From an uncultured Nitrospiraceae bacterium (GTDB lineage Bacteria; Nitrospirota; Thermodesulfovibrionia; Thermodesulfovibrionales; Dissulfurispiraceae), in contig CAIJNL010000001.1 of assembly GCA_903822005.1 (NCBI GenBank), positions 1-48,802 of the forward strand: 48,802 nucleotides of DNA. Direction: 5' to 3'. Below the pieces are notes generated by a model, which saw only the letters and a list, made by a program, of their open reading frames with translations, searched no databases and had not been told where the DNA came from. A program made the position numbers and the translations under genes. Shown here one piece after another: positions 278-22,926 of this stretch. Position 1 is the first letter of the stretch. Every line of letters starts with the position of its first letter.

Positions 278-1309
278 ATGGCAAATATACTTCTTACCAC
301 GCAGTGTAACCGTTCCTGTCCTTACTGTTTTGCAAAGCGTGAGATGTCATCCTCTGCAAAGGACAGTATCATGTCGTGGGACAATCTCATATACATAGCC
401 GACTTTCTCAAGGCCTCAGGGCAGCGGCATATAGCTCTTCTTGGCGGCGAACCGACTATCCATCCTGAGTGTGTAGATTTTATCCTGTATCTGTTCGAAC
501 GCGGCTTTGACGTTACAATCTTCACCAATGGGATGCTAAGCCCGGCCCGTCTGAAGGAATTCAAAAAGTACCTTACCATAATTTCTCCTGAAAAACTCTC
601 CTTTGTATGCAATCTTAATGACCCTGTAAAAACGCCTGCGTCTGTCACAGAGACTGAGAGGATACATCAATTCCTTTCGGCAATGGGACCATGGACCATA
701 CCGGGTTTTAATATTTATCAGCATAATTTCACGCTCGACTTTCTGTTCGACTTCATAAACCGTTACGGAATGAAACGTCATATGCGTCTTGGTATTACCC
801 ACCCGGTGCCCGGGAAGCAGAGCGATTTTATCCATGTGGACGACATGAGACAGATAATCGAGCGCCTCTATTCCTATCGACATCATTTCGACACGTTCCG
901 TGTTACCCCCGGGCTCGACTGCGGGTTCCCGATCTGCAAATTCAGGGATGAAGAGCTGGGATGGATGCAGCGCCTGAGGGTGCCGTCGCATTTCAGCTGC
1001 GGGCCGGCTTTCGACATAGCGCCTGATATGGGCCTCTACCACTGCTTTCCGCTCTCGAATTACCAGAGAAAATCGCTGTTCGAATTCGATTCGATGCAGC
1101 AGATTGATGCGCATTTCGCACAGCTGCGCGACCAGATCAAGGCCGAAATCCCCGGAATATATGAGGAGTGCGACGGCTGCAGGTATCAGGAGGACGGTGT
1201 ATGCAACGGCGGCGGCATATGCCAGGTGCTTAACCGTTTCATAGGGGAAGCTCGAATCAGGATTCCGGAGATCGAGAATGAACTTGCCAAAGATTGTCTG
1301 CCCGAATAA
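278..1309 (+). CDS. Radical SAM protein with SPASM-like cysteine-rich C-terminus
   Basis: A 343-residue radical SAM enzyme. The CxxxCxxC motif binding the SAM-cleaving [4Fe-4S] cluster is at Cys10, Cys14 and Cys17, close to the N-terminus, and a GGEP motif (SAM binding) follows at about residue 56. The C-terminal third carries a cysteine set (CGP..., YHCF, CDGC, CNGGGIC) of the SPASM/twitch kind that holds auxiliary clusters in peptide-modifying enzymes. It overlaps the next gene by 32 bp, so translation is probably coupled. With the neighbouring SPASM-like protein, the second radical SAM gene and the facing YSS-repeat gene, it is inferred to modify a peptide. Substrate and reaction are unknown. 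Confidence 0.85.
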   Translation: MANILLTTQCNRSCPYCFAKREMSSSAKDSIMSWDNLIYIADFLKASGQRHIALLGGEPTIHPECVDFILYLFERGFDVTIFTNGMLSPARLKEFKKYLTIISPEKLSFVCNLNDPVKTPASVTETERIHQFLSAMGPWTIPGFNIYQHNFTLDFLFDFINRYGMKRHMRLGITHPVPGKQSDFIHVDDMRQIIERLYSYRHHFDTFRVTPGLDCGFPICKFRDEELGWMQRLRVPSHFSCGPAFDIAPDMGLYHCFPLSNYQRKSLFEFDSMQQIDAHFAQLRDQIKAEIPGIYEECDGCRYQEDGVCNGGGICQVLNRFIGEARIRIPEIENELAKDCLPE

Positions 1310-2147
1310 TAAAAGCCTGCTCGCAGGCTTTTCAGGATACAGGGTTGCAGTCAGGGTGAATAAAATTGCCCATGCAGCCTCTGCGGCAGCCAATGTCCGG
1401 GATTCTGGCAACAGCCTCATATGCGTAATTGTAGACCCGGATCTTCCGCTCGACAGCATTGAGTTTTGCGAAGAGCAGAAGACAATCCCTCTTGCTGTCA
1501 TGGCCCCGTCCATGGGGAAGTTTCGCAATATGGCGAAGCGGCTCGACATGCTGCGGGATTTTGACCTGCGCGTTTATCTTCCCTGCGGGAAGCCGGAAAA
1601 CATTACAGCCCTCAAGATATTGGCTTCTGTCGGGATAAGCGGCTGCGCGGTTATGGAGAGCGGTAAGACCGACTGGGAGGCAATGACCGATCTGATGACC
1701 TACGCGCTGTTGGAGCGTGTGCCGCATGCTTCCATCGAGCCTTTTGAATTCATTGCATCAAATTATGATCCCATAGCGTACCTTAGCTGGGGAGGGACCT
1801 GTTTCGATGACCCGGCGCAGTTTCTCCATCTCGATTCAAAAGGAAGGGTCGCTCTTTCTGATTCTGAATTGAGAAAAAAGAAGTTTATCGCGCAGAGCAT
1901 TAAGGAAATAGGCGACCCGGCTAAATTTCCGGCTATCAGGGAAAGGCTGCAGGAGTGGAGAGGTTATTTTACCGGAAACCATATCTGCGCTTCCTGCAAC
2001 GGCTGGAAGATCTGCATGGGGAAATTCTCGGCCCATATCCGCAAAAAAAGCGGCTGCGCGGCTTTCTTCAGGGAGATGATCGAGGTTGTCCGCCAGTACA
2101 GGGTCAAGAATGTGAAGGTTGAGGAGCGTAGGATATGGCAACCGTAA
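1278..2147 (+). CDS. SPASM-like protein without a radical SAM motif
   Basis: A 289-residue protein with no CxxxCxxC motif. The middle (about residues 85-150) reads like alternating strand/helix of a TIM-type barrel, and the C-terminal region carries a SPASM-like pattern (GGTCF near residue 175, CASCNGWKIC near 236-246, a further Cys near 259). I read it as a degenerate radical SAM/SPASM homologue that may act as partner or substrate-presenting subunit for the flanking enzymes. Its start lies inside the previous gene with GGAG just upstream, and its end overlaps the next gene by 13 bp, so the three genes form one transcription unit. I do not recognise a named family. Confidence 0.7.
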   Translation: MNLPKIVCPNNKSLLAGFSGYRVAVRVNKIAHAASAAANVRDSGNSLICVIVDPDLPLDSIEFCEEQKTIPLAVMAPSMGKFRNMAKRLDMLRDFDLRVYLPCGKPENITALKILASVGISGCAVMESGKTDWEAMTDLMTYALLERVPHASIEPFEFIASNYDPIAYLSWGGTCFDDPAQFLHLDSKGRVALSDSELRKKKFIAQSIKEIGDPAKFPAIRERLQEWRGYFTGNHICASCNGWKICMGKFSAHIRKKSGCAAFFREMIEVVRQYRVKNVKVEERRIWQP

Positions 2148-4159
2148 TATTCAAGCCGACCGAGGCATGCAATTCGAGGTGCATTTATTGCGATGTAGTG
2201 CAAAAGAAGCGGCGCGGCCCGGTAACCATGCCCCTGAAGACATTGGAACTATTCTTTTCGCGCATCAATGAGTTTCTGACCGAGCGCAAAAAAGAACATA
2301 TGGAAGTCGTATGGCACGGCGGCGAGCCCCTTCTGCTCGGGCCGGACTATTTCCGGCAGGCCCTCAAGTTCCAGCAGAAACATTGCGCAAAGACCTCTGA
2401 CCGCATCAGGCACAGCCTCCAGAGCAACCTTACGCTCTTTACCAAGGAGCTTGCAGGCATAATCAGGAAGCTGGGGGTCGACAGCATAGGGACTAGCTAC
2501 GAACCGATCGAAAATATTAGGGGCCTCGGGATAAAAAGAGACTCTGCCGACTACAACCGGAGGTTCATGAACGGCATCAGGCTTGCTGAAGAAGAGGGGT
2601 TTAACTGGGGGGTCATTTATGTGGTGACAAAGCTCTCCCTGAAAAGACCGCTCGAGATATTCAATTTCCTTTCGAACCTTTCTCCAAAGGGCTCCTTCAT
2701 GTTCAACCCGGTCATTATATATGGCAACAAAACAGAACATCTCAGGGTCACGGCCGCGGAATATGCCGATTTCCTGGGGGCAATATTCCCTGTGTGGTGG
2801 CGCAATCGCGAAGAGTTCCCGCAGGTCGAGCCTTTTTTTTCGCTCACAAAAAACCTTCTCGAGGACAGCAGGTCATTGATGTGCTGCGATTCAGGACGCT
2901 GCGCTTATTCGCATATAAACCTGCTTCCTGACGGAAGCCTGTCTCACTGCGGCCGCTCAGCTGACTGGGACCTTCTGAATTACGGGACCATTTTCGAAAA
3001 ATCCTTTTCGCAGGCAATGAAAGACCCGCAGAGAAAGCTCCTTCTGAAGCGCAATGACATCCTTCCGCTCAGTGACTGCAAGGGCTGCCGTTTCTGGGAC
3101 ATCTGCCACGGGGGCTGTCCGCTCGATTCATGGGCAGCTACGGGTTCGTTTCTTCATAAAGGCGAATGGTGCGAGGTTAAAAAGCATTTTATTGAAAAAT
3201 ACTTTGAGCCTTTGGCAAAGCCGGCAGCTGCCGACATAGCAGATCAGGAGCAGCAGCACGAAGTCTGCCTTCCGCCTGAGCCTGCAGATATAATGCAGAC
3301 CGCTGAAAAGCCGGAAGACGATACGGAACCTGTCTGGATAAACCCCATTGGCGGACTGGGTGACACTTTGATGATCTCGGGTGTTTTGAAGCAGGTCATA
3401 GAAGAAGATCCGTCCCGGAGATTCAACCTGGTGGAACGCACGAAATACAGGCAGGTCCTTGAAGGGCATCCCGCGATCAGCCATATTGGGTATCCTCCCC
3501 CGGGAGCAAGGTTCATCGGTACTAATTATTGGGACAGTAAATATTACAGGCTTCCGGGCGGACGGGCGTACCAGGCCCTCGCGCGTATCTTCGGGATAGA
3601 CCATCAGGTTGAGGAGCGTTTATATGTGCCGTGGGAATTCGAGGACGACCCTGTTCTTATGAAGCTTATACCATGGAAGCGCAGGAATATCCTGATATCC
3701 CAGAGCTCGGATTCGCCGCGGAAACAGATGAGCATTAAAAGATGGGAGGCCCTTGTTGAAATGCTTGCTGATGACGAGACCGGGGTTTTTCAGGCAGGAC
3801 GGATGCATGATTGCTACATAAGGGGAGCATACAGTCTGCTCGGGCTCACAAACCCGAGGCAGCTCATCTCGATTGTGAGGCATTTCAGCGCTGTTGTGAC
3901 GTCGGACAATTTTATCATGCATTCAGCCCATCTTCATGGCGTTCCGGCTGTAGTGCTCTGGGGGCCGACCGATCATCGCGTATACGGCTATCCGGAGCAG
4001 GTGCATCTGCAGGCAAAAATGGATTGTGAATATGAGAAGGGATGCATCGGGCCGGGGCAGGGAAACATCTATCAGGTCGAATGTTCAAAGGGAGCTGATC
4101 ACTGCGTGGATACTATATCTTTGGAAGCCATTTGCGCTGCGGTTAAAAAGCTGCTTTAG
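2135..4159 (+). CDS. Radical SAM/SPASM protein fused to a family-9 glycosyltransferase
   Basis: A 674-residue two-domain protein. The N-terminal half is a radical SAM enzyme: CxxxCxxC at Cys12, Cys16 and Cys19, a GGEP motif near residue 66, and a SPASM domain with cysteines in the region 249-349 (CCDSGRC, SHCGR, CKGCRFWDICHGGC). After an acidic linker around 355-395, residues ~400-674 look like glycosyltransferase family 9 (heptosyltransferase-like): GGLGDTLM at the N-terminus, a QSSDSPRKQM segment, and a late VTSDNFIMHSAHLHGVPAVVLWGPT nucleotide-sugar-site motif, the last named here by its ends T-S-D and G-P-T. This fusion suggests that peptide modification and glycosylation are coupled. Substrate and sugar donor are unknown. 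Confidence 0.85.
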   Translation: MATVIFKPTEACNSRCIYCDVVQKKRRGPVTMPLKTLELFFSRINEFLTERKKEHMEVVWHGGEPLLLGPDYFRQALKFQQKHCAKTSDRIRHSLQSNLTLFTKELAGIIRKLGVDSIGTSYEPIENIRGLGIKRDSADYNRRFMNGIRLAEEEGFNWGVIYVVTKLSLKRPLEIFNFLSNLSPKGSFMFNPVIIYGNKTEHLRVTAAEYADFLGAIFPVWWRNREEFPQVEPFFSLTKNLLEDSRSLMCCDSGRCAYSHINLLPDGSLSHCGRSADWDLLNYGTIFEKSFSQAMKDPQRKLLLKRNDILPLSDCKGCRFWDICHGGCPLDSWAATGSFLHKGEWCEVKKHFIEKYFEPLAKPAAADIADQEQQHEVCLPPEPADIMQTAEKPEDDTEPVWINPIGGLGDTLMISGVLKQVIEEDPSRRFNLVERTKYRQVLEGHPAISHIGYPPPGARFIGTNYWDSKYYRLPGGRAYQALARIFGIDHQVEERLYVPWEFEDDPVLMKLIPWKRRNILISQSSDSPRKQMSIKRWEALVEMLADDETGVFQAGRMHDCYIRGAYSLLGLTNPRQLISIVRHFSAVVTSDNFIMHSAHLHGVPAVVLWGPTDHRVYGYPEQVHLQAKMDCEYEKGCIGPGQGNIYQVECSKGADHCVDTISLEAICAAVKKLL

Positions 4160-4228
4160 ACGCGACTTAGTAACGCAGTTCTGTCTTGAGAGCAATCAGA
4201 CCGAATCCAGACAAACATCAATAAAGCG

Positions 4229-4666
4229 CTATCTGCGGTAACTGGAGTAGCTTGAGTAACTCGAATAACTGGAGTAACTGGAATAGCTCGAATAACTATT
4301 GTACCTGGAACTGTTATACCTTGAGCTGTTATAACTCACGCTGTTGTACCTGTAGCTGGAATACGGGGATGGCACCGAGCTGTAATGGCTCTTGTAACTG
4401 GTATAGTACGACAGGTAGTCTTTGTAGAGAGGGGTCTTGTCCTTGTATCCGTCAACATAAACGGTATTTACATACGATCCTTCAATGCTTATGTAACGGG
4501 CCAGTCTTGTCTCCGCCTTGACCTCGGGCGGGTTGATCAGTCCCATGCCTACTGCAGTGGCTCCCGCAACGGCTGTTGCAATCCTTTTAATGGCAGCGCG
4601 TCTTGATAAGAGTTCTTCCTTTTTATTGCTTTTTGCTTCGCTATTATCCACTTTTTTCTTTTTCAT
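4229..4666 (-). CDS. Tat-like signal plus Tyr-Ser-Ser repeat protein, putative modified-peptide precursor
   Basis: A 145-residue protein facing the three modification genes. A lysine-rich start is followed by SRRAAIK (residues 21-27), a hydrophobic stretch (29-44) and a likely cleavage site after VKA (51), resembling a twin-arginine export signal. Residues ~80-145 are almost only Tyr, Ser, Arg, Asn and Lys, ending in six perfect Tyr-Ser-Ser units (125-142) and YRR. The start has GGGAGGTG upstream, and a near-consensus promoter precedes it. Repeat-bearing precursors next to radical SAM/SPASM genes are known from other systems, such as His-Xaa-Ser (Hxs) proteins. This looks like a tyrosine-centred counterpart, which is inference. 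A plain secreted Tyr/Ser-rich protein is the alternative. Confidence 0.75.
   Translation of the reverse strand: MKKKKVDNSEAKSNKKEELLSRRAAIKRIATAVAGATAVGMGLINPPEVKAETRLARYISIEGSYVNTVYVDGYKDKTPLYKDYLSYYTSYKSHYSSVPSPYSSYRYNSVSYNSSRYNSSRYNSYSSYSSYSSYSSYSSYSSYRR
4241..4294 (-). repeat. Six tandem 9-bp Tyr-Ser-Ser coding units
   Basis: Each unit reads TAY-TCN-AGY on the minus strand. The middle serine always uses a TCN codon and the last serine always AGY, so the array grew by unit duplication. The third bases have drifted (TCG, TCC, TCC, TCG, TCA, TCC), which suggests the amino acid sequence has been kept by selection. Degenerate units (YNS, RYNSS) continue upstream in the gene. Confidence 0.95.
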
Positions 4667-4692
4667 GGCGACACACCTCCCTGAATAAGGCC

Positions 4693-4721
4693 AGTATATC
4701 AGACTGCCTGGTGGTTGTCAA
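4693..4721 (-). promoter_or_regulatory. Strong sigma70-type promoter of the YSS-repeat gene
   Basis: Read on the minus strand, TTGACA is followed by exactly 17 bases and TATACT. It lies about 27 bases upstream of the YSS-repeat gene's start codon. It gives the small gene its own promoter, separate from the convergent enzyme genes. Confidence 0.8.
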
Positions 4722-4780
4722 GAATTATGTAAGGGTTTGTCAAGCCAAAATAGAAATGTCTGCTTTTGGGCCGGTTAAGA

Positions 4781-6094
<1,314 letters not shown>

Positions 6095-6147
6095 TTACCA
6101 TACCACATAAGGCTTTATTGGTATAGGATCGAAAGGAAGAAAAAGGA

Positions 6148-6225
6148 TTGAAAAACAGCAATTTTATGGTAGAGACAGGCATTTATTTATTAATTAAAGA
6201 TTTGCACGGGAGGATTGAAGGATGA
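6148..6225 (+). CDS. Possible 25-codon leader peptide overlapping nrdJ
   Basis: A TTG-started frame with a purine-rich AAGGAAG...AAAAGG stretch just upstream encodes 25 residues (MKNSNFMVETGIYLLIKDLHGRIEG) and ends in the TGA that overlaps the nrdJ ATG as ATGA. The four-base overlap would allow translational coupling. It is short, has a non-ATG start and no recognised homologue, so it may be chance. Confidence 0.3.
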   Translation: MKNSNFMVETGIYLLIKDLHGRIEG

Positions 6226-8465
6226 GCAAAGCCGCCACGCTTAATTTGTCCCCGAATGCATTGAAGGTCCTCGAAAAAAGGTATCTTAGAAAAGATGAAG
6301 AAGGCCGGGTCACAGAGACAGCCGAAGACCTCTTCAGGAGGGTAGCAAATGCAATAGCCCAGGCTGATGCCGCTTACGGCAGATCGAAGCAGGAGGTAAA
6401 GAAGACCGAGGAGGAATTTCATGCGATGATGACCACGCTCGATTTTCTTCCGAACAGCCCGACCCTTATGAATGCCGGGCGCAGGCTCGGCCAGCTTTCC
6501 GCCTGTTTTGTGCTGCCGGTAGATGATTCCATGGAATCAATTTTCGACGGCGTGAAATGCGCCGCGATAATCCATAAATCAGGAGGCGGCACAGGGTTTT
6601 CATTCTCGCGGCTGAGACCCAAAGGAGATGTGGTCGGCTCCACAAAGGGCATTTCTTCAGGACCGATCTCTTTCATGACTGTCTTTGATGTTGCCACCGA
6701 GGCCGTGAAGCAGGGCGGCACGAGGCGGGGCGCCAATATGGGACTGCTCAGGGTGGACCATCCCGACATTCTGGAATTCATCTCCTGCAAGGACCATAGC
6801 AACAGGCTCAACAACTTCAATATATCCGTGGGCGTCACCGAGGAGTTCATGAAGGCGGTTGAGGAGGACAGGGATTATGATCTCCTGAATCCTCGCACTA
6901 AAAAGGTTGCGGGCACCCTTAAGGCAAAAGAGGTATTTAACACAATAGTAAAGCAGGCCTGGAAAAACGGCGAGCCCGGCATCGTGTTCCTCGACAGGAT
7001 GAACGCCTGCAACCCGACCCCCGAAATCGGCGAGATCGAATCTACCAATCCCTGCGGCGAGCAGCCGCTGCTGCCCTTTGAGTCCTGCAACCTCGGGTCC
7101 ATTAATTTGACCAACATGGTAAAAGAGACCGAAGCCGGCATGGAGGTGGACTGGGCCAAGCTCAAATATACTGCCCGCAAGGCTGTTCATTTCCTGGACA
7201 ACGTAATAGATGTGAACAAGTATCCGCTCAAAGAGATCGGTGAGAATACCAGGGCCAACCGCAAGATAGGTCTCGGTGTAATGGGCTGGGCGGACATGCT
7301 GATACGTCTCGGCATATCTTATAACTCGGCCCAGGCGATAAAGCTTGGTGAAGAGGTAATGAGTTTTATCCAGACCGAGGGACGTCTGGCGTCCGGCGCG
7401 CTTGCCGAGGAGAGGGGCGTGTTCCCCAACTATCCGAACAGCATCTTCAACGGAGAGATGGCAGTCAGGAACGCAACGGTCACGACCATTGCGCCGACAG
7501 GCACGTTGTCGATCATAGCCGGATGCTCGTCAGGCATCGAGCCCCTGTTTGCGGTATCTTATGTTCGCACTGTAATGGAAGGAACCAAGCTCATCGAGAG
7601 CAATCCTCTCTTTGAGCAGGCTGCAAAAGAGGCTGGTATCTGGTCCCGCGAACTGATGGAAAAGGTGGCTGAACAGGGCTCTGTGGCTCACTGCACGGAA
7701 TTTCCGGAGAGCATCAGGAATGTATTTATAACGGCCCATGATATCACGCCTGTTGACCATATAAGGATGCAGGCGGCTTTCCAGAAGCATACCGACAACG
7801 CGGTCTCGAAAACTGTGAATTTCCCCAACGTGGCAACTGCAAAGGATGTGGAAGATGTCTTTATTCTTGCCTACACTACCGGATGCAAGGGCGTTACAGT
7901 ATATCGCGACGGATCGAGGGACGAACAGGTATTGAGCACCAAAAAGGCGGAGGAAAAGCCGCAGGCCCAGCAGAATGAGCCGGTCAGGGTAATCCCCAAA
8001 AAGAGGCCCGCGCTTACCCGGGGCGGCACAAGGCTGATGAAGACCGGCTGCGGTAAGCTCTATGTGACTATCAATGAGGACGAGAACGGCAGGCCGTTTG
8101 AGGTCTTCACGAATATAGGCAAGGCCGGAGGATGTGCATCGAGCCAGGCTGAGGCGATAGGCAGGCTGATATCTCTCGCGTTGAGGTCCAACATCGAGGC
8201 CGAGGAGATAGTACAACAGCTGAAGGGCATCTCTTGCCATCAGCCTTCGTGGTACGAAGAGGGAAGGCTGCTCTCATGCTCAGACGCCATAGCCAAGGCG
8301 CTCGAAAGTTATATCCCTGTCGGAACGACTGCGGGAGAGAATGGAAACGGCAAGTCCAAATACACAGAGGTAATGCTTATCGGGGCATGCCCCGAATGCG
8401 GCGGCACCGTGCAGCATGAAGAGGGCTGCGCCAAGTGCCACAACTGCGGGTTTACAAAGTGTTAG
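6222..8465 (+). CDS. nrdJ: Adenosylcobalamin-dependent (class II) ribonucleoside reductase
   Basis: Reduces ribonucleotides to deoxyribonucleotides using a B12-generated thiyl radical; it works with or without oxygen and needs no small subunit. The 747-residue chain has LSACFVL with a redox-active Cys at residue 95, the NPCGEQ radical site (Cys278, Glu280), SCNLGSINL, and the APTGTLSIIAGCSSGIEP loop. The C-terminal ~150 residues form the TSCPD-type extension, ending in a four-cysteine zinc-ribbon pattern (CPEC ... CHNCGFTKC). The start has GGGAGG with good spacing. Transcription is from the promoter at 6062 and is probably repressed by NrdR. No cobalamin riboswitch box is seen in the leader. 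Confidence 0.97.
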   Translation: MSKAATLNLSPNALKVLEKRYLRKDEEGRVTETAEDLFRRVANAIAQADAAYGRSKQEVKKTEEEFHAMMTTLDFLPNSPTLMNAGRRLGQLSACFVLPVDDSMESIFDGVKCAAIIHKSGGGTGFSFSRLRPKGDVVGSTKGISSGPISFMTVFDVATEAVKQGGTRRGANMGLLRVDHPDILEFISCKDHSNRLNNFNISVGVTEEFMKAVEEDRDYDLLNPRTKKVAGTLKAKEVFNTIVKQAWKNGEPGIVFLDRMNACNPTPEIGEIESTNPCGEQPLLPFESCNLGSINLTNMVKETEAGMEVDWAKLKYTARKAVHFLDNVIDVNKYPLKEIGENTRANRKIGLGVMGWADMLIRLGISYNSAQAIKLGEEVMSFIQTEGRLASGALAEERGVFPNYPNSIFNGEMAVRNATVTTIAPTGTLSIIAGCSSGIEPLFAVSYVRTVMEGTKLIESNPLFEQAAKEAGIWSRELMEKVAEQGSVAHCTEFPESIRNVFITAHDITPVDHIRMQAAFQKHTDNAVSKTVNFPNVATAKDVEDVFILAYTTGCKGVTVYRDGSRDEQVLSTKKAEEKPQAQQNEPVRVIPKKRPALTRGGTRLMKTGCGKLYVTINEDENGRPFEVFTNIGKAGGCASSQAEAIGRLISLALRSNIEAEEIVQQLKGISCHQPSWYEEGRLLSCSDAIAKALESYIPVGTTAGENGNGKSKYTEVMLIGACPECGGTVQHEEGCAKCHNCGFTKC

Positions 8466-8497
8466 TTTAGTGCTGTTTAATCTGTCAGATACGGGAC

Positions 8498-8528
8498 GCC
8501 CCCGGATGCCGCATCCCGGGGGCTTTTT
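8498..8528 (+). terminator. Rho-independent terminator after nrdJ
   Basis: A GC-rich hairpin whose arms GCCCCCGGATGC and GCATCCCGGGGGC pair with one bulged base is followed directly by five T residues. It ends the nrdJ transcript 33-60 bases after the stop codon. Confidence 0.92.
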
Positions 8529-8580
8529 AACAGGGGCAGGGGATTGCTTTTTTAGTCTGATTAATGATAACTTTTAAGCC

Positions 8581-9135
8581 ATGCCGGAACAGATACGACA
8601 GATAGCCACGAGGATCAAGGAACTGAGGGAGATCGCCGGTCTCACGGTCGAGGCGGTCGCGCAGGATTTTCATGTCGGGCCTGACGTGTACCGCGGCTAC
8701 GAAAGCGGCAAGGTGGATATCCCTATCAGCATACTCTTCAACATCGCCAGAAAATTCAAGGTCGACCTGACAGAAATACTAACCGGCGGCGGACCTCATC
8801 TGCAAGAGTATTGCCTTGTCCGCAAAGGCAAAGGCGTTAAAGTTGAGCGCAGGAAGAATTATGATTATCAGAGCCTGGCGTATAATTTTATGCACAAAAA
8901 AGCCGAACCGCTCCTGGTGACTGTGCCGCCCGATCCTGGTGACGCTCCGTATCCGCTCAACTCGCATCCCGGTCAGGAATTCAACTATGTTATCAGCGGG
9001 ACCCTGAAGATCATTATTAATAATCATGAACTCGTTCTGAACGAGGGCGATTCGCTATTCTTTGATTCTGGATTCGACCATGGAATGAAGGCAGTCGGCG
9101 GAAAACCGGCACAATTCCTGGCGATAATATTCTGA
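8581..9135 (+). CDS. XRE-family helix-turn-helix / cupin regulator
   Basis: A 184-residue protein with an N-terminal Cro/cI-type helix-turn-helix (about residues 8-65, with the typical [13 protein letters not shown] stretch) and a C-terminal cupin barrel (about 105-184: [28 protein letters not shown]). Such two-domain proteins usually sense a small metabolite through the cupin and regulate nearby genes. It lies five bases upstream of an acyl-CoA synthetase gene, a common arrangement, so control of that gene is a reasonable inference. The ATG has no strong Shine-Dalgarno sequence (TAACTTTTAAGCC precedes it). The ligand cannot be told from sequence. Confidence 0.88.
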
Positions 9136-9140
9136 CCCCT

Positions 9141-10796
9141 ATGCTTGAAAGGTTTGTACCCAAAATAGATTTCAGTTCGTACGAAGAGTTCATGAGGGAT
9201 TTCAGGATCGAGATCCCCGAACGCTTCAATTTCGCCTATGATGTCATGGATGCGGCGGCTGAAAAAAAGCCTGACAAGACCGCCCTGGTATGGTGCGACG
9301 AAAAGGGCGCAGAGGCTACTTTTACATACGGTCAATTGAAGCACTACAGCGACAAGGCAGCGAATTTCTTTACGGCGCAGGGCATACGCAAAGGCGATCC
9401 AGTGATGCTGATACTCAAGCGCAGATACGAATTCTGGTTCTGCATCCTTGCTCTGCACAAGATCGGTGCTATCTGCATACCTGCCACCCATCTTCTTTCA
9501 AAAAAGGACATTGCCTACCGGAACAATGCGGCTGACATAAAGATGATCGTAAGCGTGGCAGAACCGGAAGTGGCTGGTCATGTCGAAGATGCCGAGCCTG
9601 AATCTCCCTCCCTTATGGCAAAAGCGATTATTGGGGGCGGGAGGGCCGGATGGCTCGATTTTAATGCCGAGATGGAGAAGGCGTCAGCTGATTTCAAACG
9701 TCCGTCGGGCGACAACGCGCCCGCGAACAGTGATATATTATTGATCTATTTCACGTCGGGCACCACCGGCATGCCGAAGATGGTGCAGCATAACTTTACT
9801 TATCCCCTCGGCCACATACTCACTGCCAGGTACTGGCAGAATGTTACGGATGACGGACTGCACCTTACTGTGGCCGACACTGGATGGGCCAAGGCAGTAT
9901 GGGGAAAGATTTACGGGCAGTGGCTTGCGGGCACCGCAATATTTGTATATGACTACAACAAATTCGATCCGAAAAAGATGCTCGAAGTCGTTACCAAGTA
10001 CGGGGTCACCACTTTCTGCGCTCCGCCTACCATTTACCGGTTCTTCATCAAGGAGGACCTTTCGAAGTATGACTTCAGCAAACTCAGACATTGTTCGACC
10101 GCCGGAGAGCCGCTGAATCCTGAGGTTTATTCCCAGTTTCTGAAAAGCACGGGTATACGATTAATGGAAGGCTACGGGCAGACTGAGACAGTGGTCGCAA
10201 TAGCCACCTATTCCTGGATGGAGCCGAAGCCCGGCTCAATGGGCAAGCCGTCCCCGTCATACGATATTGACCTGCTCGACGATGAGGGGAATTCCTGCGA
10301 GGTGGGCGTTGAGGGGCAGATAGTTGTTCGTACCGACAAGATGGCGCCTTACGGAATGTTCGGCGGATATTATCGCGAGGGCGACCGCACTGAAGGCGCC
10401 TGGCACCACGGAGTATATTACACCGGCGATATGGCCTGGCGCGATGAAGACGGCTATTACTGGTTTGTCGGACGCGCCGATGATCTCATAAAGAGTTCGG
10501 GATACCGTATTGGGCCTTTCGAGGTCGAGAGCGCTCTACTTGAACATCCCGCTGTTCTGGAATGCGCCATTACTGGTGTTCCGGATGAAGTAAGGGGACA
10601 GGTCGTCAAGGCCACAGTTGTTTTGGCCAAGGGCTACTCGGCAAGTGAAGAAATTGTCCTGGCACTCCAGGAACATGTCAAGAAGGTTACTGCTCCATAT
10701 AAGTATCCAAGGATTATAGAATTCGCGCCATCGCTTCCCAAGACGATCAGCGGCAAGATCAGGCGTGTCGAGATCAGGGAAGGCGACATCCAGTAG
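9141..10796 (+). CDS. AMP-forming acyl-CoA synthetase
   Basis: Activates a carboxylic acid to its acyl-CoA through an acyl-adenylate. The 551-residue protein carries the family motifs in order: [12 protein letters not shown] (phosphate loop, near residue 204), GYGQTE (near 345), [13 protein letters not shown] (near 427), [20 protein letters not shown] (hinge) and the C-terminal [10 protein letters not shown] with the catalytic lysine. The general shape resembles medium-chain acyl-CoA or acetyl/propionyl-CoA-type ligases; the substrate cannot be assigned. It starts five bases after the XRE-cupin gene, so the two are probably co-transcribed. Confidence 0.93.
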
Positions 10797-12395: not shown

Positions 12396-13328
12396 ATGAC
12401 TGTTCGCAGTATCGCAAGGATCTTTCTTTGTGTATTAATAAGCTCAATGCTGGCCGTCGGCATGTCATCCGCTGCCGACAACGGCTACAAGCGAATTGTT
12501 GTGCTCGGTGATCCGCATCTGCCCGGCTCAATGCTTGAGCAGAAAGAAAAGGTGCGGGAAAACATCAACAGGTGGAAAGATGTTGACCTGATAGCGGCAG
12601 TCGGCGACATTACAGAGACCAGGGGTACGGATGATGAATACGCTGCCGCAAAGAACTATTTCGCGGGGTTCCATAAACCGCAGGCACTGATCGGCGGAAA
12701 CCATGATTATCTTTATAACGATCATCTCAACCGGAACGGGAAAAAAACAAAGGCAGACCCGTTTGTGCGTGCTGGCAAGCTCGCCTATTTCAGGAAGACA
12801 TTCGGCATGCCGTCTTTGCATTACACAAAAGAGCTCGGGCGTTACCTGCTTGTTTTTCTGACGGCTGACGATCTCCAGGCTGCCACGCTGGCGACCATTT
12901 CAAAAACCGGATACGACTGGCTTTCGGCAACACTTGAGGGCAACAAAAATAAGGCAACAATAATTTTCTTTCATGCCCCGCTGGAGGGCACCCTGGGTGA
13001 TTATCGGAAGCATTCGGATATTAATGACTCTTTTGCGCAGCCTGCGGGGGAGATAAAGCGCATTCTTGCCGCCAATCCGCAGGTCTTCATGTGGGTGTCG
13101 GGCCATACGCATACCCCGCCTGGTGATCAGAATTTTGCTTCCGGCGCCAACTTGTATGAAGGCAGGATAATGAATATTCATAATACCGACATGAAGCGGA
13201 AGCATATTTATACAAATTCACTCTTTCTTTATGACGACAAAGTCATTGTCAGGACGTTTGATCATAATAAAGGTGTGTGGATGTATAAACTGGAGCGGAC
13301 TGTGCGTGTGCGGGAAACAGACAAATAA
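12396..13328 (+). CDS. Exported metallophosphoesterase
   Basis: A 310-residue calcineurin-like phosphoesterase. Residues 1-26 form a signal peptide ending SSA-AD. The di-metal motifs appear in order: LGDPHLPG (DxH), AVGDITE (GD), IGGNHDY (GNHD), FFHAPLEG and VSGHTHTPPG (GHxH). It should act outside the cytoplasm on a phosphate ester or nucleotide that cannot be specified. GGGGG lies about eight bases before the ATG. It is followed closely by two small membrane-protein genes. Confidence 0.92.
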   Translation: MTVRSIARIFLCVLISSMLAVGMSSAADNGYKRIVVLGDPHLPGSMLEQKEKVRENINRWKDVDLIAAVGDITETRGTDDEYAAAKNYFAGFHKPQALIGGNHDYLYNDHLNRNGKKTKADPFVRAGKLAYFRKTFGMPSLHYTKELGRYLLVFLTADDLQAATLATISKTGYDWLSATLEGNKNKATIIFFHAPLEGTLGDYRKHSDINDSFAQPAGEIKRILAANPQVFMWVSGHTHTPPGDQNFASGANLYEGRIMNIHNTDMKRKHIYTNSLFLYDDKVIVRTFDHNKGVWMYKLERTVRVRETDK

Positions 13329-13344
13329 CTGTCATAATATAATC

Positions 13345-13689
13345 ATGGACAGTGACAGATCATCAGGCGACCTGCCGGAGCCGACCGAGAAAGAGTATCG
13401 CGAGGGCATAATACTGCTTTTATCGATAGCGCTGATCGTCTACTTCGAGCGGGACATAAAATATTTTATTCCCGGACCGGTACGGCATAAGGCAGAGGTC
13501 TGTTTTATCCTGTTGTTGACCGGAGCTGTGCATCTGCTCTGCTCAGACCTGCTTGCATTTTTTTACAACAGCAGGCATCTCAGGTTTTTCCCTTTTCTGT
13601 TTTCCAAAAGAAGCCAGGCCGCTCCGCGCCATGCCCGGATGGTCGGACTCTTTTTTGTTCTGGCGGCAATCGTGACTCTTTTCTTGTAA
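13345..13689 (+). CDS. Small hypothetical membrane protein
   Basis: About 114 residues with three hydrophobic segments (near 21-35, 50-70 and 95-114), separated by a basic loop (SKRSQAAPRHAR). The ATG at 13345 is chosen because it follows the phosphoesterase stop; the longer open frame reaching back to 13231 would lie within that gene. There is no clear ribosome binding site. I do not recognise the family. The adjacent genes suggest only co-transcription. Confidence 0.6.
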   Translation: MDSDRSSGDLPEPTEKEYREGIILLLSIALIVYFERDIKYFIPGPVRHKAEVCFILLLTGAVHLLCSDLLAFFYNSRHLRFFPFLFSKRSQAAPRHARMVGLFFVLAAIVTLFL

Positions 13690-15610: not shown

Positions 15611-16567
15611 TTATTGCCGGGACGCTCCAAAGGTCTGCATTGCCCATGATACGCGTGTTTCCGCAGTGGCAAAGATCGCGGCAGGCGCCGCTTCAATGAG
15701 ATCGAGCCGCCTTCGGAGTCCGTCAAGATTTGCTATCTGTATGGCGAGACCGGGCCTGGCATTAAGCTCAAGTAGCACCGGCCCGCGCTCGCTGTCAATC
15801 ACCATGTCGACCCCTATGTAGCCGAGCCCTGTCATGTCGAAGGCTGAGGCAGCTATTAGCAGCATTCTCTCCCAGTAGGGTACCTGTATATTGCCTACCG
15901 GATTCCCGGTATCAGGATGATGAGTTATTACCGCTGAATGGTATACAGCCGTCAGTGTTTTGCCGCTGGTGATTTCGATGCCGGCTGCGATCGCTCCCCG
16001 GTGAAGATTTGCCTTGCCGTCAGAGGCCCTGGTCGGGAGTCTCACCATTGACATCATCGGCACCCCGCGGTATACCACAACACGTATGTCAGGTACTCCG
16101 GCATAGGTGACCTGGGCGAATACCGGGGCTGGATGAAGAAGTGCCTCAATGATCGCCGTATCATCAAGCCCTGACAGTGAATAAATACCCGACAAGATAT
16201 CAGAGATATGAAAGTCGAGATCTGCCTTTGACAGTATTGTGCCGCCCGGAGTGACGAAGTTATCTGCCTGCCTGTCTGCCACCAGGATGATGCCTTTTCC
16301 GCCTGCTCCTCTCGCGGGTTTTACAACGAAGTCCGGTTTGCCAGCTATCTTTGCTTCGAGTTTATGGATATCACCGTGATGTTCGATCAGGTGATATACG
16401 GGAGGGACCGGGATATCAAACTTGTCTGCCAGCCGCTTGGTAAGCACCTTGTTGTCAACAAGGGGAAAGGCTGAGCGGGGATTGCTGCGCATGATATATT
16501 CGCTGTTCCTGCAATTTATCCCGAGTACGCCTCTTTTCCCGAGTGCATTAAAGGTTCTTAGGTTCAT
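15611..16567 (-). CDS. Alpha-L-glutamate-ligase-like ATP-grasp protein
   Basis: A 318-residue RimK-type ATP-grasp enzyme expected to form an amide bond to an amino acid using ATP. It opens with NALGKRGVLGINCRNSEYI and VDNKVLTKRLADKF, has the nucleotide-binding FVVKPARGAGGKGI, and ends with the metal-binding LLELNARPG. It is the last gene of a three-gene minus-strand unit and overlaps its upstream neighbour by 20 bp. The trio (retropepsin-like protease, inactive transglutaminase-7TM, ATP-grasp ligase) is a recurrent cassette proposed to make and process a peptide tag at the envelope. The substrate is unknown. Confidence 0.9.
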   Translation of the reverse strand: MNLRTFNALGKRGVLGINCRNSEYIMRSNPRSAFPLVDNKVLTKRLADKFDIPVPPVYHLIEHHGDIHKLEAKIAGKPDFVVKPARGAGGKGIILVADRQADNFVTPGGTILSKADLDFHISDILSGIYSLSGLDDTAIIEALLHPAPVFAQVTYAGVPDIRVVVYRGVPMMSMVRLPTRASDGKANLHRGAIAAGIEITSGKTLTAVYHSAVITHHPDTGNPVGNIQVPYWERMLLIAASAFDMTGLGYIGVDMVIDSERGPVLLELNARPGLAIQIANLDGLRRRLDLIEAAPAAIFATAETRVSWAMQTFGASRQ

Positions 16568-18095
16568 TGCTTTCTCCCAGCTGTCTGAAGCGGAAGAGCT
16601 CCATCAGCCGGTAGCCCGTATATCGGCCGAGGAGAGTCTGGAGGGCCATAACAGCGAACAGGAGTTCCGGATAGACGAAGAAGGTCAGCTGCAGAGGTTC
16701 AAGCTGTATTATGATATAGGTTATGGTTGCGACAGCCGCGCTTCCGGCAGAGGTGCGGAGGGCCTCCAGGATGCCCTGCTCCTCGATGATGATATGGAAA
16801 CGTTCGATGGTGAGGGTCAGGATCACAAACGGGAGCAGACCGATGGCCATAAATTCCCTCACACCGAGTTTGTTTCCCACGAGTGCAAAGAATATAAAAC
16901 ATGAGATAACGAGGGTCAGGATTACGGATAGCCTCGGGACGAGCAGGAGACGGAGCTTGTCTATCGAATTCCGCACTAAATATCCTATCAGTAAAACGGC
17001 GGCAAATATTCCGAGTCCGGCAAGAAGCCCTGTGTTCCGGAAAGCGAGCGCCATCAGTACCGGCATAAAGATGCCGAAAGTCGGGAATCCTACGATATTT
17101 CGCAGGACGCAGACTATAAGGGCGCCCAGGGGAACCAGGATGAGTATGCGGAAGGTGTTCTGGAACTGGGGCGGCAGGCGGAAGAGCGACCAGCGGTTAA
17201 GCAGCCTGTCTGATGATCCGACACGCTCATTCTGGATGCCCCACTGACTTATGATCTGCCTGTTCAGAGACCACCGGACATCAGAAACCTCTCCATTGAT
17301 CGAACGCACTGCAGGCATTCCAAACCGGGTCAACGGCAGAAAAGCGCCTGTCCTCTGATGAATGATTCCCGTTTCCGGCATGATTATCTGCCACGAAGTG
17401 CCTGTCCATACCTCGATCCAGGTATCAGTTTTTGAGGATACATTCTCTTCCAGCGCAAGTCCTTCTACCATATTAGACTGAAGTCCCGCTGCCCTGAACA
17501 AAACGAGAAGCGCCTTTACGCTGCCGAGCCTGTTTTGAATCACCGACCATTTTTCGAGATCTTCTGCACGCAGCCTGGAGGTGTCCCAATTGCCTGTGGC
17601 GGCCGGGGCAATGGCTTTTATTCTTTCGGTGAAAGAGAGCGTTTTCTTGTCAGACACAAGTTTTTCGGCAAGTGTCTGTTCTGCCCTGTCAACACCTTCG
17701 GGATAAGAATTAACGGCCGCCGCTGCAGGAGCAGGATACCTTGATTTGGCTATAAAGGTCGCGCTGTATGAAACCGGGGTGCCTTCGTGTTCGGTCGCGC
17801 CTGACCAGATTGCATAGCGGTTTTGCCCTTCAGTCTGGAGACTGAAATCGAGCGGGCCCTCGGTTATCTTTTCTTCAAGAAGGGTGATTCCCTGTTTGTA
17901 GGAAGGCAGTGCAATAATTGCGGTGGCGCCGTCAGCCGGGCCGCTGATCCTCGCATCAAGGGAAATTTGCCATACCCGTTCAGGGGTTGCGGGAAAGAGC
18001 GGGTATCCGAGCGAAATGACCCTGTAAGAGATAAGGATGGCCGGCAGCACCAGTAGTGAAATTACGATAGCTGCTATATAGCGGTTCAGGGTCAT
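16548..18095 (-). CDS. Inactive transglutaminase fused to seven transmembrane helices
   Basis: A 515-residue membrane protein. An N-terminal anchor (about residues 8-28) is followed by a large extracytoplasmic part. This contains a transglutaminase-like core near 200-250 (WSVIQNRLGSVKALLVLFRAAGLQSNMVEG and WIEVWTG, here given as landmarks) in which the usual catalytic Cys is absent. The C-terminal ~190 residues hold about seven hydrophobic helices. It is the central gene of the ligase/protease cassette and overlaps both neighbours (4 bp and 20 bp). It is thought to bind a peptide rather than cut it. Confidence 0.88.
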   Translation of the reverse strand: MTLNRYIAAIVISLLVLPAILISYRVISLGYPLFPATPERVWQISLDARISGPADGATAIIALPSYKQGITLLEEKITEGPLDFSLQTEGQNRYAIWSGATEHEGTPVSYSATFIAKSRYPAPAAAAVNSYPEGVDRAEQTLAEKLVSDKKTLSFTERIKAIAPAATGNWDTSRLRAEDLEKWSVIQNRLGSVKALLVLFRAAGLQSNMVEGLALEENVSSKTDTWIEVWTGTSWQIIMPETGIIHQRTGAFLPLTRFGMPAVRSINGEVSDVRWSLNRQIISQWGIQNERVGSSDRLLNRWSLFRLPPQFQNTFRILILVPLGALIVCVLRNIVGFPTFGIFMPVLMALAFRNTGLLAGLGIFAAVLLIGYLVRNSIDKLRLLLVPRLSVILTLVISCFIFFALVGNKLGVREFMAIGLLPFVILTLTIERFHIIIEEQGILEALRTSAGSAAVATITYIIIQLEPLQLTFFVYPELLFAVMALQTLLGRYTGYRLMELFRFRQLGESNEPKNL

Positions 18096-19179: not shown

Positions 19180-19755
19180 GTTGATTCTCCCTGTCAGCAA
19201 GGTATGTTCCTGAGTGTGGTGAAAAATGCAGTATTAAATATCCCTTGTATCCTATATTTTATATCCCGGCACGGAAATCCGGTATCCGTATTTGTCTGAA
19301 ATTGGTGTCGGGATTAGTCTTAAGCTATTGTAAGGAGAGACAATAGGATTAATGTGGGTTAGTGGGCAAATCGGTATTGGAAAAAATCCTCCTGTTCAAC
19401 CAGATCGGAGCATACTTCTCTGTTTAAGACCGTGCGCTGGGCATAACTGTGGCGCCACAATACTGTGCGACCGGGGCATTTTTTGTCGCACAATATAAAG
19501 CAAGAGATCTTTTCTTTGTGTCATGGTAGCGATAACTCTTTGATAATAAGCATATTTAATTGGCCTCATTGGTATTCCGTATTCGGCATATTACTTGCTA
19601 ATATAATCCGGATTAGAACTATATTCATTCTAAGCTTTTAGTATCTGATTGGATATTGGGCTTTTTTTTGTAAATTCAGCATTTGTGTTTATGAAACGGG
19701 CCTTATATCAGACACATTAATAAGATGTGATAAATTCAATATGCAGGGAGGTAGT
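19180..19755. other. Intergenic region between PilZ and formate dehydrogenase genes
   Basis: About 575 bases without a convincing gene. It is AT-rich toward the fdhA side. It holds a 12-bp perfect palindrome (19448-19459), an 8-bp inverted repeat (19464-19492) and an isolated TATAAT near 19603 without a good -35 partner. A 48-codon frame at 19352-19498 is considered and not accepted as a gene. It must contain the fdh promoter, which I cannot place; no clear sigma54 site is seen. Confidence 0.6.
19448..19492. promoter_or_regulatory. Paired palindromes upstream of the formate dehydrogenase operon
   Basis: TGTGGCGCCACA (19448-19459) is a perfect 12-bp palindrome. Four bases later TGTGCGAC and GTCGCACA form a perfect 8-bp inverted repeat around a 13-base spacer with a T-run (19464-19492). 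The two sites share TGTG...CACA ends. They could be operators for an unknown regulator; there is no match to a site I can name. Confidence 0.4.
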
Positions 19756-22700
19756 ATGGATGTTTCTAGACGAGACTTCCTGAAGTTGGCAGGAAGCACC
19801 CTCGCTGTAGGTTCGGTTGCCGGCGTGGCAAGCGCTAAAGACGCTGACGTTGCCGCCGCGGAGCTGCGTATAAAGGGTGCAAAGCGCACTACGACCGTCT
19901 GTCCCTACTGCTCAGTAGGATGCAGCATTGTTGTGGACACTGCGGACGGAAAGATCATCAACGTGGAAGGCGACCCCGATAGCCCCATCAACGAGGGTAC
20001 CCTCTGTCCCAAGGGTGCTTCGCTCTACCAGATGGCGAACAATGAGACGCGCCTTGTAAAGCCGCTGTACAGGGCTGCCGGGGCTGCAGAGTGGAAAGAG
20101 GTAGAGTGGGGCTGGGCGCTGGACCAGATAGCCCGCAAGGTCAAGGACAGCCGCGACCGCACTTTCAGGGCCACATCCAAATCCAAGGTCAGGGAGAAAA
20201 AACCGGACGGGACTGAGGTCGATGTTGAAAAGGAATTTACGGTCAACCGGACGGAAGGCATCGCTCATATAGGCAGCGCCGCAATGGACAATGAAGAGTG
20301 CTATGTAATGCAGAAACTTGTCCGCTCATGGGGCCTCACCTATATAGAACATCAGGCCCGAATATGACACAGCGCAACTGTAGCGGCTCTGGCAGAGTCG
20401 TTCGGGCGCGGTGCAATGACAAATCACTGGGTGGACCTGAAGAACGCGGATGTTATCCTGGTCATGGGATCAAACCCCGCATCAAACCATCCTGTTTCCA
20501 TGAAATGGATAATGAAGGCAAAGGAAGACCGCGGGGCCAAACTGGTTGTAGTTGATCCCCGCATAACCCAAACTGCTACGAAGGCAGACCTCTATGCCCC
20601 GCTCCGTTCGGGAACGGACATCGCCTTCCTCGGAGGCATGATCAAGTATATCCTTGATCGCAACCTCTATTTCAGTGAATATGTAGTCAACTATACGAAT
20701 GCTTCGTTTCTGGTGAATCCTGATTTTAAAACCCCGTCGCAGCTTGACGGCGTCTTTTCCGGGTTCGACGAGAAAAGCCGCAAATATGACAAGACGACCT
20801 GGTCCTTCCAGATGGACGCAAACGGCGTCCCGAAGAAAGACCCGACGCTGAAAGACCCTAATTCAGTTTTCCAGCTGCTGCGCAAACAATATTCCCGATA
20901 CACTATGGAAAAGGTGAGCAGTATTACAGGCACCCCGGTTGACAAGCTCGAAGAGGTGTATAAGGTAGTTGGATCGACCGGCAAGCCTAACAAGGTTGCC
21001 ACGGTCTGTTACGCGATGGGATGGACCCAGCATACTGTGGGCGTCCAGAACATAAGGGCCTTTTCGATGATCCAGCTTCTGCTTGGCAATATGGGAATGG
21101 CAGGCGGTGGAGTAAACGCCATGAGGGGAGAGGCCAATGTCCAGGGATCAACGGATTACGGGCTTCTTTTCCATATTCTCCCCGGATACAACCCCACACC
21201 GACGGCCTCGCTTACAGATCTGAAAACATATAACGAAAAAAATACCCCCAAAACGAAAGAACCGAGGAGCGTAAACTGGTGGGGCAACAGGCCAAAGTAT
21301 ATCGCGAGCTATCTTAAGGCGATCTACGGGGACAAGGCCACAAAGGAAAATGACTTTGGCTACTCCTGGCTTCCGAAGTGTGACGAGGGGGCCAACTATT
21401 CATGGCTGAATCTCTTTGACCAGATGTTCAAGGGCAAGTTTGAGGGCTTCTTTGCCTGGGGCCAGAATCCGGCCTGTTCAGGCGCCAATTCGAACAAGAC
21501 CAGAATGGCACTGACCAAACTGAAATGGATGGTCAATGTAAACCTTTACGACAACGAAACCGGCTCTTTCTGGAGAGGCCCCGGCATGAACCCGAAAGAG
21601 ATCCAGACCGAGGTCTTCATGCTGCCCTGCGCATCTTCAGTCGAAAAGGAAGGAAGCATAAGCAATTCAGGCCGTCTCGCGCAATGGCGCTACAAGGCGA
21701 TTGAGCCTGTAGGACAGTCACAGCCTGATGCCGAGATCATTAACGAACTCTATTTCAGGGTGAAAGATCTCTATCTGAAAGAGGGCGGGAAATTCCCGGC
21801 GCCTGTCGTGAACCTTTCGTGGACCTATGGGCAGAAGGGACATGACGGCAAACTGGGGCATATAGATGTCCGCAAGATTGCCCAGGAGATAAATGGCTAC
21901 TACCTTGTCGATGTGCGCGACAAGGCGGGCAAGCTTATCGGTAAAAAGGGAGAGCTCTGTTCGAACTTCACGACTCTTCAGGATGACGGCACGACCTCCT
22001 GCGGCTGCTGGATATATTCAGGCAGCTTCACCCAGAAGGACGGCAAGATCACAAATAACATGATGAGACGCGGAAAGGACGATGCCACCGGGCTTGGACT
22101 CTTTCCGAACTGGGCCTGGGCCTGGCCTGTCAACAGGAGGATCATCTATAACCGCGCCTCTGTTGATCCCAAAGGCAACCCGTGGGACCCGAAACGCGCT
22201 GTCATTAAATGGAATGCTACCAAGATAAATCCGCAGACCGAAAAGCCCGGAGTATGGGAGGGCGATGTCCCTGACGGGCCGGCTGCACCCATGGCAATGG
22301 AAGGCGGCAAGCTGCCTTTCATCATGAAAGCGGACGGCACAGGCTCGATCTTTGGCCCCGGACTGGTTGACGGGCCGTTCCCTGAGCATTATGAACCGCT
22401 CGAATGTCCGCTGCAGGAGAATCCGATGTCCAAAAAGCACAGGATAAACCCTACAGTAAAGATGTTCTATGGCAAAGACAGCGATCTGAAAGAGGACGTC
22501 TTTATCTCGTGCGATACAAGGTATCCTATAGTCTGTTCGACCTATCGTGTTACCGAGCACTGGCAGACAGGGCTGATGACAAGGCATGTGCCGTGGCTGC
22601 TTGAGGCCGCTCCCCAGATGTTTGTCGAAATGAGCCTGGAGCTCGCCAAAGATAAAGGCATAAAAAACGGGGAAAAGGTCACGGTATCATCCGCCCGCGG

Positions 22701-22926
22701 AAGTTTATGGGCCGTGGCGATTGTGACCGACAGGTTCAAGCCTTTCAAGGTCATGAATTCGACCGTGCATCAGGTCGGCATCCCCTGGCATTACGGATGG
22801 CAGTTTCCTGTTGACGGCAGCGGCGGCGAGAGCGCAAATATCCTTACGCCCACTATCGGCGATCCCAATACGATGATACCTGAATCAAAGGCCTTCATGG
22901 TCAGTATCGAGAAGGCGAGGGGGTAG
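19756..22926 (+). CDS. fdhA: Formate dehydrogenase, selenocysteine- and molybdopterin-containing alpha subunit
   Basis: One 1056-residue gene interrupted by an in-frame TGA (20365-20367) that encodes Sec204. The flanking HQARI-U-HSATVA and FGRGAMTNHWVDLKNAD match the selenocysteine site of FdnG-type enzymes. It oxidises formate to CO2 at a Mo/W-bis-MGD centre in the periplasm. The N-terminus is a Tat signal (SRRDFLKLAGS) and the [4Fe-4S] motif is CPYCSVGC plus a later TLCPKG. The ATG at 19756 is chosen because GGGAGG lies just before it; an ATG at 19741 precedes that site. A gene caller treating TGA as stop would give two fragments (ending 20367 and starting 20416). The operon continues with fdhB and fdhC. 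Confidence 0.95.
20383..20401 (+). promoter_or_regulatory. SECIS-like hairpin in fdhA
   Basis: Downstream of the UGA, GCGGCTCT and AGAGTCGT pair over eight positions (two G-U pairs) around a GGC loop; the loop begins 24 bases after the UGA. Bacterial SECIS elements lie in this interval and have G residues in the apical loop. The spacing is slightly longer than in the other three selenocysteine genes of this window. Confidence 0.55.

Follow-up and report, generated by a model that had tools for sequence, protein, structure and literature searches.

A radical SAM cassette with a pseudo-radical-SAM protein and a putative role in modifying exported tyrosine-repeat proteins

In the window, the whole 48,802-nucleotide stretch of an uncultured Nitrospiraceae bacterium analysed here, we identified three overlapping genes that face a small gene for a tyrosine-rich protein. 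The trio encodes a radical SAM/SPASM enzyme (A), a SPASM-like protein without the SAM-cluster motif (B) and a second radical SAM/SPASM enzyme that carries a C-terminal GT9 domain (C), with overlaps at both A/B and B/C. The fourth gene, convergent to the trio, encodes the putative precursor. Cassettes of this kind comprise four or five genes, the GT9, where present, being either fused to C or a gene of its own. Judging from sequences and structure models, we read the cassette as a RiPP-like maturation set for an exported repeat protein, in which each Tyr-X-X unit would be closed to give a poly-cyclophane, usually glycosylated and then exported through Tat (probability about 0.6).

The earlier note on this DNA had described the four genes and six perfect YSS units, and open reading frames and translation confirm both. 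Its enzyme set of two radical SAM/SPASM proteins plus a third without the SAM-cluster motif was also correct, since CxxxCxxC is present in A and C and absent from B, but the heptosyltransferase-like GT9 fused to C had gone unnamed. Neither the precursor nor B is named by any Pfam or NCBIfam model, and the cassette as a whole is absent from the family libraries searched. In the literature searched, we found no Tyr-Ser repeat, Tat-exported or pseudo-radical-SAM system of this kind, with a mention in the JACS 2022 triceptide landscape paper being possible.

Distribution and co-occurrence

Searching 296 genomes from the phylum of the window for B yielded three further genomes, all with precursor, A, B, C and a separate GT9 gene in one direction. 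A pattern search based on A over species genomes added Deltaproteobacteria (Myxococcota in the tree labels), Ignavibacteriae, Bacteroidales, Muribaculaceae, Elusimicrobiales and a cut gammaproteobacterial contig, and B profile searches added six genomes, one of them distant. This incompletely sampled set of MAG contigs holds 17 complete A-B-C cassettes and one cut by a contig end, from Myxococcota, Bacteroidota, Ignavibacteriota, Elusimicrobiota, the window's phylum and others. The cassette is rare and patchy, occurring in 4 of 396 genomes of the phylum.

A small, leader-bearing, Tyr-rich precursor adjoins A-B-C in all 18 loci; locus L040 has two, which brings the total to 19 precursors. It mostly lies upstream of A, follows the GT gene in L015, L016, L036 and L037, and is convergent in the window. 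Within the phylum, a precursor profile run on 217 genomes matched all four cassette genomes and none of the 213 others (Fisher exact 1.1e-8). The only additional match was marginal (E 0.002), covering the leader part inside a 410-aa frame, and the profile revealed no convincing orphan precursor in these 217 genomes. The co-occurrence of the repeat gene with the trio, which the earlier note had proposed to check, is thus observed, and its refuting case of precursors lacking radical SAM genes did not appear.

The supposed pairing of these enzymes with a Tyr-repeat substrate holds at 18 of 18 loci. Apart from these there is a distant cluster, L041 (identities of 36% for A, 30% for C and 20% for B; GT9 1.3 kb further on), where no Tyr-repeat protein is in view at positions 3911-9796. 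Far relatives may accordingly use other substrates, and L041 is likely a sister system with another one, as judged from its gene content. The same interval also encodes a 144-aa secreted protein.

Phylogenies of A and C place the fused-GT cassettes in a single clade (support 98/99 and 97/97), with a Myxococcota MAG rather than the phylum mates as nearest kin of the window. This topology indicates a single GT fusion event and horizontal transfer, with the cassette apparently moving as a unit. Individual loci vary in content. In L038 (genome G1150), C-type radical SAM genes occur as a tandem pair (7311-8486 and 8464-9564), the second strongly diverged, possibly one per chemistry on its GYTS/AYSS repeats. 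In L040, a tandem pair of precursor genes whose repeats are of the YYN/YxR type (8979-10016, minus strand) accompanies one cassette, and in L018, from Elusimicrobiales, a DUF3738 protein (12829-13662, plus strand) rather than GT9 follows C.

The precursor, its leader and its repeat unit

The window's precursor gene (4229-4666, minus strand; 145 aa) combines a twin-arginine-like leader with a Tyr/Ser repeat tail, and its homologues adjoin all other cassettes. A Shine-Dalgarno-like element (GGGAGGTG / CAGGGAGGTG) lies upstream of its start at 4667-4684 on the same strand. The leader motif RRAAIKRIA (residues 22-30; 4577-4603, minus strand) conforms to a consensus, [RK]RxA[LIM]xR[IM][AS], found in 19/19 precursors; 18 of them have RR, and L017 has KK. 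Against the NCBIfam TAT model, the leader scores 15 bits, just short of the 16.7 cut-off. TatC is encoded in 17 of the 18 cassette genomes and was not found in G303. The cassette leaders carry Ala where canonical Tat signals have Phe, plus an extra conserved Arg, features suggesting that the leader may double as a recognition signal for the enzymes. In L008, L015, L020, L037, L038 and perhaps L014, a lipobox-like Cys ends the leader.

A canonical Tat signal, SRRDFLK, stands in contrast to this leader in the same window, at the start of a formate dehydrogenase alpha subunit (19741-22926, plus strand). An in-frame TGA at 20365-20367 (context RIUHSATV), likely a selenocysteine codon from its context, interrupts the reading frame, and the next gene encodes a 4Fe-4S beta subunit that contains a formate dehydrogenase transmembrane domain. 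The window further encodes an inactive transglutaminase fused to seven transmembrane helices (16548-18095, minus strand; PF14400/PF14402), with a 318-aa gene just past it, and a B12-binding radical SAM protein (28893-30320, plus strand) that has no relationship to the cassette.

The six perfect YSS units occupy residues 125-142 (4241-4294, minus strand) and are followed by YRR. Their codons vary (TAT/TAC; TCG/TCC/TCA; AGC/AGT) with zero amino-acid change, which argues that the repeat is kept at the protein level by selection. These synonymous differences, together with recurrence of the pattern in unrelated genomes, rule out a young DNA microsatellite. The repeat region extends beyond the six units, with many YNS, YSS and YKS units preceding them. 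Thus, Tyr-Ser-Ser does occur as the earlier note had it, but as one version of a more general unit in a longer repeat region.

Across the precursors, that unit is Tyr-X-[Ser/Asn/Asp/Arg], with a free +1 and a constrained +2 position. In the window's precursor, 91% of Tyr residues have Ser, Asn, Asp or Arg at +2, compared to 47% in shuffles (0/2000 reach 91%). Averaged over the 19 precursors, +2 is Ser in 36%, Asn in 20%, Asp in 11%, Tyr in 11% and Arg in 8% of cases, while +1 is spread over many residues, which rules out YSS as the exact unit. The four residues make up a fraction of 0.5-1.0 at +2 in 18/19 precursors and exceed composition-matched shuffles at p <= 0.005 in 15/19. The four precursors outside this threshold are L011, L015 and L018, with short or partial tails, and L036; the +2 preference is weak in L036, in L011 and in L015, whose precursor is partial.

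The dominant +2 residue differs between lineages, being Ser in the window, L008-L010, L014, L020, L037 and L038, Asn in L012, L013, L016 and L017, Asn/Asp in L039, Arg/Asn in L040, and Asp in L015, L018 and L036. Tyr spacing also changes between 3 and 4 (GYTS/YxSx in L038, GYSST in L020). Since L038 and L020 retain Y-x-S at a spacing of at least four, a three-residue lattice does not account for the rule, and the unit is Y-x-X3. A fixed, silk-like lattice of three is ruled out as the rule by L020, L038 and L010, which have at least four residues per Tyr unit.

Codon usage at the repeats is uneven. Ser at +2 is almost always encoded by AGY in 7 of the 8 Ser-type precursors (window, L008, L010, L014, L020, L037 and L038; L009 is the exception), whereas codons for Ser at +1 are mixed. 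AGY is one step from the Asn codons AAY, and the bias suggests that +2 Ser descended from, or exchanges with, Asn. A DNA pattern for YSS repeats matched nothing in the source genome because the second Ser uses AGY codons.

The radical SAM-type proteins and the GT9 domain

Gene A (278-1309, plus strand; 343 aa) matches Pfam Radical_SAM with 58 bits (E 1.7e-15). Its CxxxCxxC motif (residues 10-17; 305-328, plus strand) is invariant in the alignment of 12 cassettes, as are C10/C14/C17 and the SPASM-type residues C215, C220, C241, C256, C298, C301 and C309. No NCBIfam equivalog cut-off was reached by A, and scores of 55 bits of 180 and 45 of 284 rule it out as viperin or MoaA, respectively.

Gene B (1278-2147, plus strand; 289 aa) lacks CxxxCxxC in 12/12 aligned sequences, its SPASM-maturase fold notwithstanding, and has no match in Pfam or to any family. 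A SPASM-like Cys cluster remains (C237, C240, C246 and C260; 1986-2057, plus strand; pattern CxxC-x5-C...C), in which C237, C240 and C246 are invariant and C260 nearly so across the 12 cassettes. The AlphaFold2 model of B (pLDDT 87.8) shows a predicted full-length SPASM-type fold. VIA aligned it to anSME 4k37 with Z 12.9 over 262 residues (rmsd 4.0), followed by ChlB (12.7), CteB (12.2), TigE (12.1), SuiB (9.6) and PqqE (8.8). Foldseek alone gave no significant match (best E 0.015), the SPASM fold emerging only upon VIA re-alignment. B is thus a pseudo-radical-SAM protein; every complete cassette retains it, and it is most likely a subunit for substrate binding or electron transfer.

Gene C spans 2135-4159 on the plus strand (674 aa; Radical_SAM, SPASM and GT9). 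Its N-terminal part (2135-3316) is a radical SAM/SPASM enzyme of the anSME/DynA/cyclophane-former type by NCBIfam and PDB matches, with CxxxCxxC and SPASM Cys sets as invariant as those of A. C exceeds the cut-off of the NCBIfam model rSAM_more_4Fe4S (39 bits; cut-off 27). Matches to its best named relatives, DynA, anSME, DarE, AmcB, YhhB and GrrM/OscB, all stay far under their cut-offs. Scores were 138-140 bits for DynA (cut-off 450), 134-136 for anSME (349), and 110-112 for DarE and 111-113 for DarW (650 each). Models of cyclophane formers gave 91 of 425 for AmcB, 90 of 445 for YhhB, 79 of 310 for GrrM, 63 of 370 for FxsB and 51 of 450 for XyeB, and HxsB gave 56-59 of 370. As the scores of C fall far short of the cut-off for each named cyclophane former, the assignment of this chemistry rests on substrate logic.

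This logic comes from characterised three-residue cyclophane enzymes, which join i to i+2 as Trp-Arg/Asn, Trp-Asn/Asp, Phe-Asn, Phe-Ser (MscB), Tyr-Asp (YxdB) or Tyr-Arg (YhhB), with OscB and XncB linking Trp to Asn/Asp/Arg (PMC11002830). The idea of an aromatic-X-X substrate, already put forward in the earlier note, is strengthened by the restriction of +2 to the same residues (PMC11002830). In the PDB, the closest solved structure to C is anSMEcpe (E 2.4e-29). In anSME, the Asp directly after a SPASM Cys (CDF) is the catalytic base; the window's C has Gly there (CGRSADW), arguing against an anSME-like route to formylglycine. Taken together, the third-residue set, the relatives of C and this Gly make cyclophane formation on each Tyr-X-X unit the best reading, by analogy with the known enzymes.

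Among known systems, triceptides (XncB, OscB/GrrM, MscB, YxdB, YhhB) likewise have a radical SAM/SPASM enzyme adjoining a small aromatic-X-X precursor, with Asn, Asp, Ser or Arg as third residue and Tyr among the known aromatics (PMC11002830). Ala, too, counts among the third residues of triceptide motifs. Unlike their usual one-enzyme layout, the cassette has two radical SAM enzymes, a pseudo-radical-SAM protein and GT9. It further differs in a third residue varying over S/N/D/R within one family, in many tandem units, in the twin-arginine-like leader and in a C under all cut-offs. The His-Xaa-Ser system (HxsA-D) shares paired radical SAM genes and a precursor with repeated three-residue Xaa-Ser units, but there His takes the place of Tyr and C is far below the HxsB cut-off; we know of no pseudo-radical-SAM protein or GT9 in that system. 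Although anSME is the closest solved fold for both C and B and targets Ser/Cys of a later-exported protein, its Asp is not conserved in C and the cassette has no sulfatase substrate. The dynobactin and darobactin maturases DynA, DarE and DarW are the best NCBIfam matches of C, yet the cassette precursor resembles neither of their substrates. TvgA/TvgB, a poly-cyclopropylglycine RiPP, also involves a radical SAM enzyme working repeatedly on a short tandem motif, though on a TVGG repeat with different chemistry and one radical SAM enzyme (PMC9062424).

The C-terminal part of C (3317-4159, plus strand) is a heptosyltransferase-like GT9 domain with 25.5 bits against Pfam Glyco_transf_9, above the gathering cut-off of 22. 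Its model (pLDDT 90.2) shows a predicted GT-B heptosyltransferase fold, with VIA Z of 21.3 for the GT9 structure 3tov, 21.0 for WaaF 1psw, 20.0 for TibC 4rap (263 residues) and 19.2 for WaaC. TibC O-heptosylates Ser of autotransporters and contains a four-Cys iron finger (PMC4358343). Sequences of the cassette GT show four conserved Cys near the C-terminus, and its modelled fold resembles the TibC/AAH autotransporter heptosyltransferases (BAHT) and WaaC/WaaF (VIA Z 19-21). In contrast to BAHT, the 280-aa cassette domain has no N-terminal beta-barrel, aligns to TibC residues 91-387 only, and is either fused to radical SAM enzymes or shares an operon with them.

An intact-looking GT9 occurs in 14 of the 17 complete cassettes, six times as a fusion with C and eight times as a gene of its own; it is truncated or degenerate in L016, and L017 and L018 have no adjacent GT. 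Domain II of rfaE, which is needed for ADP-heptose, was found in 16/18 cassette genomes, and in the Muribaculaceae genome lacking it the GT is truncated and without donor motif. Tyr is the sole hydroxyl residue present in every repeat of the GT-bearing cassettes, which would make Tyr the sugar acceptor or, alternatively, scattered Ser/Thr.

Proposed maturation and alternatives

Maturation would start with the precursor, whose conserved twin-arginine-like leader and tail of Tyr-X-[Ser/Asn/Asp/Arg] units can be read directly from its sequence. In the anaerobic cytoplasm, C would act on the repeats, probably in a complex with A and the pseudo-enzyme B, and most likely form one three-residue cyclophane per unit by bonding a carbon of the Tyr ring to C-beta of the +2 residue (-2 Da each). 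A probably carries out another radical step or takes part in the crosslinking, with B as a probable substrate-binding or scaffold subunit. The GT9 domain would add a sugar, probably heptose from ADP-heptose, to a repeat hydroxyl, and the stiffened tail would leave through Tat. In the several species where a lipobox-like Cys ends the leader, the product may then be membrane-anchored. The cassette contains no dedicated protease or exporter, which makes an envelope or adhesive polymer a likelier product than a diffusible antibiotic.

Other linkages might form on the same repeats, such as a darobactin-type ether, a Tyr-Tyr bond between neighbouring units or a dynobactin-like C-N bond. DynA, DarW and DarE as top NCBIfam matches of C and the common Tyr spacing of three agree with this, but the spacing varies (3 or 4; GYSST, GYTS) whereas the +2 residue is constant, and Tyr-Tyr bonding would leave the constrained S/N/D/R unexplained; we consider such linkages unlikely. 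There is also a slim chance that C is an anSME-like oxidase converting Ser to formylglycine, with the GT then acting on the product. The closest solved structure and the Ser-rich YSS units point that way; against it stand the Gly in place of the anSME Asp, the many cassettes in which Asn, Asp or Arg fills the +2 position and precursors free of CxPxR/SxPxR-type motifs.

Similarly improbable is a system that mainly makes a glycoprotein, in which the repeats would be the substrate of the GT, with the radical SAM proteins working on the sugar or on something else. The frequency of GT9 (14/17 complete cassettes, six fused) and the TibC precedent on Ser (PMC4358343) favour it, but A-B-C and the precursor persist beside a degenerate GT (L016) or without an adjacent one (L017, L018), which argues that A-B-C is the core. 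That the Tyr-rich gene is an unrelated neighbour, such as a silk-like structural protein, is barely credible: it does lie convergent to the trio and outside its operon in the window, but adjacency in 18/18 loci, colinearity in most, exact co-occurrence in 217 genomes and leader conservation all contradict it. We thus favour cyclophane formation on the Tyr-X-X units.

If every part of the proposal applied, the products would form an undescribed class of exported, glycosylated poly-cyclophane proteins. Such a product would carry tens of successive Tyr-X-X rings, closed by a radical SAM complex in which a pseudo-enzyme is the third of three subunits. It would be heptosylated by a fused GT9 and pass folded through Tat to become a rigid surface polymer, with horizontal transfer spreading the class across phyla. 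We hold this tentative picture to be somewhat improbable as a whole. The cassette family itself is defined and testable, with enzymes and substrate strictly co-occurring in several phyla. Within this single enzyme family the third residue varies naturally between Ser, Asn, Asp and Arg, which provides a system for studying +2 choice by radical SAM cyclophane enzymes; the role of a pseudo-radical-SAM subunit can be probed as well. Furthermore, the family bears on whether highly crosslinked peptides require Tat for export, and a natural radical SAM-heptosyltransferase fusion would combine two modification types on one peptide.
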